Positions 7,719 to 29,914 of a stretch of 64,000 nucleotides of DNA are shown here, piece by piece (the stretch's first letter is position 1; the number at the start of each line of letters is the position of its first letter). This DNA comes from Burkholderiales bacterium. GTDB lineage: Bacteria > Pseudomonadota > Gammaproteobacteria > Burkholderiales > SHXO01. The notes beneath the pieces are model-generated. The model saw nothing but the letters and a program-made list of their open reading frames with translations, ran no database searches and had not been told where the DNA came from. The DNA is taken from NCBI GenBank assembly GCA_020854105.1, contig JADZGB010000043.1, forward strand, positions 1 through 64,000, read 5' to 3'. A program made the translations under genes and the position numbers.

Positions 7719-8076
7719 CTGCTGAAGCGAGGCGTCGCGACAGGGCACGGTCCACTGCTGGATCCCGGCCCCGGATCAAAGCATTCCGGGGCAGGCTTTC
7801 ACGCGCCGGGATGACGACACACCCGTCGCCCCGGCGAGATCCCCACACCCGTCGCCCCGGCAACCGCCGGGGTCCAGCATACAACGAAAGGTCAGTTCTA
7901 CTACGTGGATCCCGGCTTTCGCCGGGATGACGATGAGTTTGGGATGACGATGAGTTTGGGATGACGATGAGTTTGGGATGACGATGAGTATGGGATGACG
8001 ATGATGCTGGGATGACGAGGATATCGAGATGATGAAGGTCTGATCCCGGCGTTTGCCGGGCTGGCGACCGTCTTGC
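7719..8076. repeat. gene-free stretch filled with REP-like palindromes
   Basis: These 358 bases between two convergent genes hold no credible gene. They contain several copies of a palindromic element of the form GATCCCGGC-TTTC-GCCGGGATGACG (clear copies near 7909-7933 and 8040-8068, with degenerate copies at 7758-7815 and 7840-7880), plus the minisatellite listed separately. Related elements occur at 47987, 56981 and 61341. Confidence 0.75.
7926..8020. repeat. 17-bp minisatellite, about 5.6 copies
   Basis: GATGACGATGAGTTTGG is repeated head to tail: three exact units (7926-7976), two variant units (7977-8010) and a 10-base partial unit. The unit begins with the GATGACG tail of the adjacent REP-like element, suggesting the array grew from it by slippage. 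Confidence 0.93.
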
Positions 8077-22208: not shown

Positions 22209-22902
22209 GATCCGCGACCTGGACGCCGGCTACGGAGCGAGCCAGGTCCTGTTCGGCCTGCAGCTGTCGATCGAGGCAGGCGAAGCCGCGACCCTGCTCG
22301 GGCGCAACGGCATGGGCAAGACCACCACGGTGCGCAGCATCCTTGGCCTGGTGGGGTCGAGCGCCGGCAGCATCCGCTTCCGCGGCGAGCGCATCGACGG
22401 ATGGAGCGCGGACCGCATCGCCCGCGCCGGCATCGCCGTGGTCCCCGAGGGACGGCAGATCTTCCCCAACCTCTCGGTGGAGGAGAACCTCGTCGCCTTC
22501 GGCGCCAATCGAAATGCCTCGTCGAGCCCCTGGGACCGGCAGCGCGTCTACGACATGTTCCCGCGCCTGCGCGAGCGGCGCACCAGCATGGGCGAACGGC
22601 TCTCCGGCGGCGAGCAGCAGATGCTCGCCATCGGCCGCGCCCTGATGACCAATCCGCATCTGCTGATCCTCGACGAGGCCACCGAGGGTCTGGCGCCGCT
22701 GGTGCGCGAGGAGATCTGGCGCTGCCTGCATCGCCTGCGCGGCGATGGCCAGACCATCCTGGTGATCGACAAGTACGTCGAACGCCTGATCGCGCTCGCG
22801 CAGCATCACACCGTTGTCGAGCGCGGGCGGGTCGCGTGGCACGGCACTTCCGCGGCACTGGAGCGGGATCACGCGATCTGGCAGCGCTATCTGGGCGTCT
22901 GA
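22192..22902 (+). CDS. livF: branched-chain amino acid ABC transporter ATPase LivF
   Basis: A 236-residue ABC ATPase: Walker A GRNGMGKTT, signature LSGGEQQMLAIGRAL, Walker B LLILDEATEGL. I chose the TTG start at 22192, which overlaps livG by 17 bases and has GGGAG upstream; the ORF is open earlier but has no family sequence there. The Walker B Glu is followed by ATEGL, a LivF variant. Last gene of the operon. Confidence 0.92.
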   Translation: MAALLEIRDLDAGYGASQVLFGLQLSIEAGEAATLLGRNGMGKTTTVRSILGLVGSSAGSIRFRGERIDGWSADRIARAGIAVVPEGRQIFPNLSVEENLVAFGANRNASSSPWDRQRVYDMFPRLRERRTSMGERLSGGEQQMLAIGRALMTNPHLLILDEATEGLAPLVREEIWRCLHRLRGDGQTILVIDKYVERLIALAQHHTVVERGRVAWHGTSAALERDHAIWQRYLGV

Positions 22903-22965: not shown

Positions 22966-22994
22966 GATTGAAAATGCCCGGGTGAGCCGCATAT
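22966..22994 (+). promoter_or_regulatory. sigma-32-like heat-shock promoter of hsp20-lon
   Basis: GATTGAAA (-35 box with TTGAAA at 22968-22973), a 13-base spacer, then CCGCATAT (22987-22994) match the RpoH consensus CTTGAAA-N13/14-CCCCATNT with few differences. It lies about 80 bases before the small heat-shock gene and lon, both classic RpoH targets. Confidence 0.7.
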
Positions 22995-23044
22995 CGCCGA
23001 AAGACACCATAATCGCCGGAAAGCAACCATATCGCCGGCAAGAC
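22990..23044. repeat. three near-identical direct repeats in hsp20-lon leader
   Basis: CATATCGCCGAAAGACAC (22990), CATAATCGCCGGAAAGCAAC (23008) and CATATCGCCGGCAAGAC (23028) are three head-to-tail copies of an 17-20 bp unit. The first overlaps the -10 box of the heat-shock-like promoter, so they could be binding sites for a regulator or elements of the 5' leader RNA. Confidence 0.75.
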
Positions 23045-23072
23045 ATGTTGGGCCGGCACAGGGCATACACGC

Positions 23073-23474
23073 ATGAGATCCCGCTATCCGACCAGTTCCA
23101 TGTGGGCGCACGCCCTGGAGATGCTGGAGCAGGCCGACCGCCTGCACCGCCAGTTCTTCCAGCCGGGCCCTGCCGCGATATCGGCCTGGGAGCCGCCGGT
23201 GGACATCGTCGAGCACGACGATGCCTATCACGTCATCGTCGCGCTGCCGGGGGTGGACCCCTCGCGCATCCGCGTCTGGTTCGACGGTGCGGCGCTGGTG
23301 GTGACCGGCGAGCGGCCGCTGCCGGCCAGCTGCCAGGGCGGAGCGATCCGGCGGCTGGAGATTCCCTACGGACGCTTTCAGCGGCGCATCCCGATTCCCG
23401 CGGGGCAGTTCGAGCTGTTCGGGCAACAGGTCGAGAACGGCTGCCTGATCATCGGGCTGCGGCCGTTGTCGTGA
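23073..23474 (+). CDS. Hsp20 / alpha-crystallin small heat-shock protein
   Basis: A 133-residue protein whose residues about 40-130 form an alpha-crystallin domain (EPPVDIVEHDDAYHVIVALPGVDPSRIRVWF...LVVTGER). Small heat-shock proteins hold unfolded proteins for refolding by DnaK. The C-terminal I-x-I/V anchoring motif is not obvious after GLRPLS, so oligomer assembly may differ. lon starts 10 bases downstream; both probably use the sigma-32-like promoter. A Lon-linked sHsp suggests handing bound clients to the protease. Confidence 0.88.
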   Translation: MRSRYPTSSMWAHALEMLEQADRLHRQFFQPGPAAISAWEPPVDIVEHDDAYHVIVALPGVDPSRIRVWFDGAALVVTGERPLPASCQGGAIRRLEIPYGRFQRRIPIPAGQFELFGQQVENGCLIIGLRPLS

Positions 23475-23484
23475 GGACGCTGAC

Positions 23485-25938
<2,454 letters not shown>

Positions 25939-29784: not shown

Positions 29785-29914
29785 ACCGGGACTGCCGCCG
29801 GGGTTGCTCCTGTGTCGGGGCCCCTGTGCCGGGACTTCTGCTTGGCCGGGACTGCTGCTGTGCCGGGACTGCTGCTGCATCGGCACTGCTGCCGCGCCGG
29901 GACTGCTACTGCTG
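29785..29914. repeat. degenerate tandem repeat, about 18-bp unit
   Basis: About seven imperfect copies of a CCGGGACTGCTGCTGTGC-like unit fill the gap between two convergent stops and reach the last codons of the minus-strand gene. Confidence 0.8.

Follow-up and report, generated by a model that had tools for sequence, protein, structure and literature searches.

We identified a putative sigma-32 promoter in front of the adjacent hsp20 and lon genes in the window (the whole 64,000-nt stretch of DNA analysed here), together with three tandem repeats running from its -10 element into the leader. With high confidence, we read this arrangement as a standard sigma-32 promoter for hsp20-lon in which the -10/start region underwent a recent, neutral tandem duplication that lengthened the leader. 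The original prediction had proposed both a sigma-32 promoter and a role for the repeats as operator sites or part of an RNA thermometer; the promoter stands, whereas the proposed role of the repeats is not supported. These findings provide, for an uncultured lineage of Burkholderiales, a well-supported predicted sigma-32 promoter of the hsp20-lon pair.

The hsp20 gene (23073..23474, plus strand) encodes a small heat-shock protein of 133 aa (Pfam PF00011) and has homologues whose position upstream of lon is conserved, with lon directly 3' of hsp20 in all 80 relatives fetched. On the same strand and after a gap of 10 bp, lon (23485..25938, plus strand) encodes an ATP-dependent protease of 817 aa (Pfam PF05362/PF02190; TIGR00763, 922.7 bits against a cut-off of 608.05), and at this distance the two genes are probably cotranscribed. 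The nearest named relative was the Burkholderiales metagenome bin JAHCKU010000105 (hsp20 89% identical), which is the same locus as that of the sister species, hereafter referred to as G003. The upstream neighbour on the same strand, which ends at 22902, resembles an operon for a branched-chain amino-acid ABC transporter, a name given by sequence inspection without a family search. A second Lon, 45% identical to that of the window, is encoded at C29 of the same genome, and a sigma-32-like site, CTTGAAT-N13-CCCCACCT, was seen upstream of its gene (L144, G000:C29).

The promoter and the repeats lie within the stretch ...GGGATTGAAAATGCCCGGGTGAGCCGCATATCGCCGAAAGACACCATAATCGCCGGAAAGCAACCATATCGCCGGCAAGACATG..., where pattern matching placed a sigma-32-type -35 element, TTGAAA, at 22968..22973 and a -10 element, CCGCATAT, at 22987..22994 (both plus strand). 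These elements are separated by the 13-base spacer ATGCCCGGGTGAG, and the -10 octamer has one mismatch to the consensus CCCCATNT. The combination that had been claimed is present at 22968-22994, and it contains the three features expected of a sigma-32 promoter: a TTGAAA-like -35, a CCCCATNT-like -10, and a spacer within 12-15 bp. The -10 element lies 79 bp from the hsp20 start. From this promoter anatomy, transcription is predicted to start at 23000..23002 (plus strand), 6-8 bp 3' of the -10 element, giving a predicted 5' leader of ~72 nt (23001..23072, plus strand), in which we found no supported thermometer structure. We infer sigma-32 dependence: RNA polymerase bearing RpoH would bind TTGAAA-N13-CCGCATAT and initiate at about 23001, and the hsp20-lon transcript would be made when unfolded protein frees RpoH.

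We further examined the signal across the genome. The strict pattern TTGAAA-N11-16-CCSCATNT matched once in the 64-kb window and in none of 100 shuffles, while the 4.07-Mb genome contained three matches, against zero for the reversed control pattern. Two of the three precede heat-shock genes, namely hsp20-lon and clpB; at the third, at C48, no heat-shock gene was recognised. Similar sites were found before grpE (CTTGAAA-N13-CCCCACTT) and before one groES copy (CTTGAAA-N13-GCCCATAC), and the genome encodes RpoH (406 bits, above the cut-off of 323), so that the sigma factor and the same signal at clpB, grpE, and groES occur together. A looser pattern (TTGA-N13-18-CCCATNT) gave 11 matches versus 7 for its reversed control and was dropped as too unspecific.

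Comparison with relatives provided a phylogenetic footprint which, alongside the genome context and the similar heat-shock promoters elsewhere in the genome, backs the assignment of a sigma-32 promoter to hsp20-lon. In G003, all 14 bases of the two promoter elements, including those of the -35, were identical and the 13-bp spacing was kept, whereas the remaining intergenic region was identical at 53 of 118 aligned bases, with 38 window bases opposite gaps (hypergeometric, 3.6e-5). In a second genome of the same genus (G001, 97% complete), no match to the window hsp20 was found, and GTTGAAA-N13-CCCGATAT lies directly before lon (L142, positions 1346-1373). By inspection, the gene upstream of lon in G001 is unrelated to hsp20 and looks like a RidA/YjgF-type protein. 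Among 80 other hsp20-lon loci, promoter scores of at least 10/13 occurred upstream on the coding strand in 19, compared with 3 on the opposite strand and none in a downstream control that was mostly lon-coding; in the other 61, no sequence within 160 bp matched the E. coli consensus strongly. At the level of sequence, the promoter's presence and its conservation are demonstrated, the latter holding within the genus and being incomplete across the wider family. Overall, the promoter core persists where the length and sequence of the leader are free to vary.

The three direct repeats reported to extend from the -10 box into the leader proved to be real, forming tandem copies of ~19 bp at 22990-23047. 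Copy 1 (CATATCGCCGAAAGACAC, 22990..23007) overlaps the -10 box and is followed by copy 2 (CATAATCGCCGGAAAGCAAC, 23008..23027) and copy 3 (CATATCGCCGGCAAGACATG, 23028..23047), all on the plus strand, with the core ATCGCCG recurring at 22993, 23012, and 23031 in an exact 19-bp register. Tandem Repeats Finder reported an array at 22990-23043 (period 19, 2.8 copies, 81% matches, 8% indels, score 71), while a general, ungapped repeat finder saw a 10-bp core just twice. The triple array is imperfect, and a chance origin at the promoter site is unlikely because random sequence yields only ~0.1 array per 64-kb window at this score: 60 sequences of 64 kb with the window's dinucleotide statistics gave 6 arrays scoring at least 71, all of ~2 copies and with periods of 25-34. 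Two stronger tandem arrays were also observed in the window, at 7924-8032 (period 17, 5.6 copies, score 162) and at 29824-29912 (period 17/34, score up to 115).

The three 19-bp copies most probably represent a lineage-specific tandem duplication spanning the -10 box and the early transcribed region, which would have extended the leader to ~72 nt from the ~45 nt seen in G003. The repeats were absent from G003, where the alignment has a 27-base gap, and from the lon leader of G001, and no array in the other 80 hsp20-lon leaders scored as high as that of the window (maximum, 58). We infer that the repeats are neutral because they are not conserved, although the array holds its exact 19-bp core register through mismatches, as a selected element could also do. 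Loss of the array in G003, rather than gain in the window species, is a possible alternative, as the differing leader of G001 gives no indication of the direction.

A different explanation is that the direct repeats serve as operators, at which a repressor or activator acting over the -10/start region would subject hsp20-lon to additional control. The array does cover the -10 box and the start in three copies, its exact 19-bp core spacing is close to two helical turns, and it exceeds chance expectation. We nevertheless consider this reading improbable, given that the repeats are missing from both genus relatives and were also absent when sought upstream of other heat-shock genes (the clpB, grpE, groES, and rpoH regions examined). 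They are neither conserved before orthologues nor repeated before co-regulated genes, and by eye they lack the dyad symmetry typical of dimeric regulators. A genome search for spaced ATCGCCG pairs found no other triple array; pairs 8-16 bp apart occurred at 18 other places, each as an isolated pair, and the nine closest single-copy matches that were read elsewhere in the genome all lie inside open reading frames, some of them short or not obviously coding. With both single units and spaced pairs searched, a regulon-wide operator was rejected.

Alternatively, the duplicated -10-like segments CACCATAA and AACCATAT could function as additional promoters or as sites of sigma-dependent pausing shortly after the start. 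Copies 2 and 3 do open with CATAAT or CATAT after an A/C-rich stretch and so resemble a -10 element, but by eye neither has a TTGAAA-like -35 at the right distance, the segments are not conserved in G003 or G001, and sigma-32-dependent pausing at them is speculative, which leaves this explanation very improbable. A consensus scan for sigma-70 promoters within the repeats found none. There is likewise little probability that the duplicated -10/start segments constitute a recent, species-specific control element of hsp20-lon, whether as operators or as sigma-32-dependent pause sites.

The least probable reading makes the repeats part of an RNA thermometer that would mask, at low temperature, the ribosome-binding site of hsp20, as in Pseudomonas, where small heat-shock genes have both a sigma-32 promoter and a ROSE-type thermometer (PMC3669281); it was rejected on the basis of folding at five temperatures, shuffled controls, and Rfam. 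The predicted RNA (from ~23001) would span copies 2 and 3 plus just the last part of copy 1, which lies partly 5' of the predicted start and would be only partly transcribed. The leader folded no better than its shuffles (z = +0.44, 137 of 200 shuffles as good), and the predicted unpaired fraction was nearly flat between 30 and 42 °C, both in the stretch before the start codon (0.48 and 0.52) and at the AUG (0.70 at both temperatures); the folding proposed at these two temperatures accordingly gave no sign of temperature-dependent opening. A GCCGGC/GCCGGC hairpin is possible at ~23034-23057, but it is stable and sits 5' of the AGGG without pairing with it. Moreover, the leader has no UUUU run, Rfam gave no match at E values up to 5, and the models gave neither a pairing of the ribosome-binding site that opens on heating nor a ROSE or fourU family or motif.

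The operator, thermometer, and pause-site readings are possible ones, the positive evidence for them being confined to the position of the array. A standard sigma-32 promoter with a neutral duplication is the reading that we retain, and only a demonstrated regulatory effect would give the repeats significance.

Compared with published sigma-32 promoters, the hsp20-lon promoter matches in its TTGAAA, its 13-bp spacer, the heat-shock gene downstream, and the rpoH gene in the genome. The consensus has been given as CTTGAAA-N13-15-CCCCAT (PMC3168786), with a -10 of CCCCATWT/CCCCATNT that varies between proteobacterial classes (PMC6687850); the window promoter differs from it by an A, not C, before TTGAAA and by a G replacing the third C in the -10 element (CCGCATAT), a variant that also occurs in several betaproteobacterial hsp20-lon loci. 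In four such loci (L045, L051, L074, and L085), we observed a common variant, CTTGTAT/CTTGCAT-N14-CCGCATAT, with the same -10 G as the window. The HrcA operator CIRCE (TTAGCACTC-N9-GAGTGCTAA; PMC545781) is similar in being a heat-shock operator close to promoters and is present in the same genome before groES and rpoH, whereas the window repeats are direct rather than inverted and do not match it in sequence. No CIRCE (GCACTC-N9-GAGTGC) was found anywhere in the window, the hsp20 promoter included, and the only two in the genome are those before groES and rpoH, at L134 (G000:C3:108946-108966) and L137 (G000:C4:25345-25365). The copy before rpoH suggests that HrcA may repress the sigma-32 gene; a CIRCE upstream of rpoH has been reported in Geobacter sulfurreducens (PMC545781). 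Pseudomonas ibpA, likewise a small heat-shock gene, has a sigma-32 promoter too but carries a ROSE-like thermometer (PMC3669281), in contrast to the window leader, which has no supported thermometer structure. Finally, the adjacency of hsp20 and lon is known from hsp20.3 of acidophiles (PMC10490939), in which a small heat-shock gene also adjoins the Lon protease gene; the arrangement in the window shows no essential difference, and here the promoter has been analysed as well.
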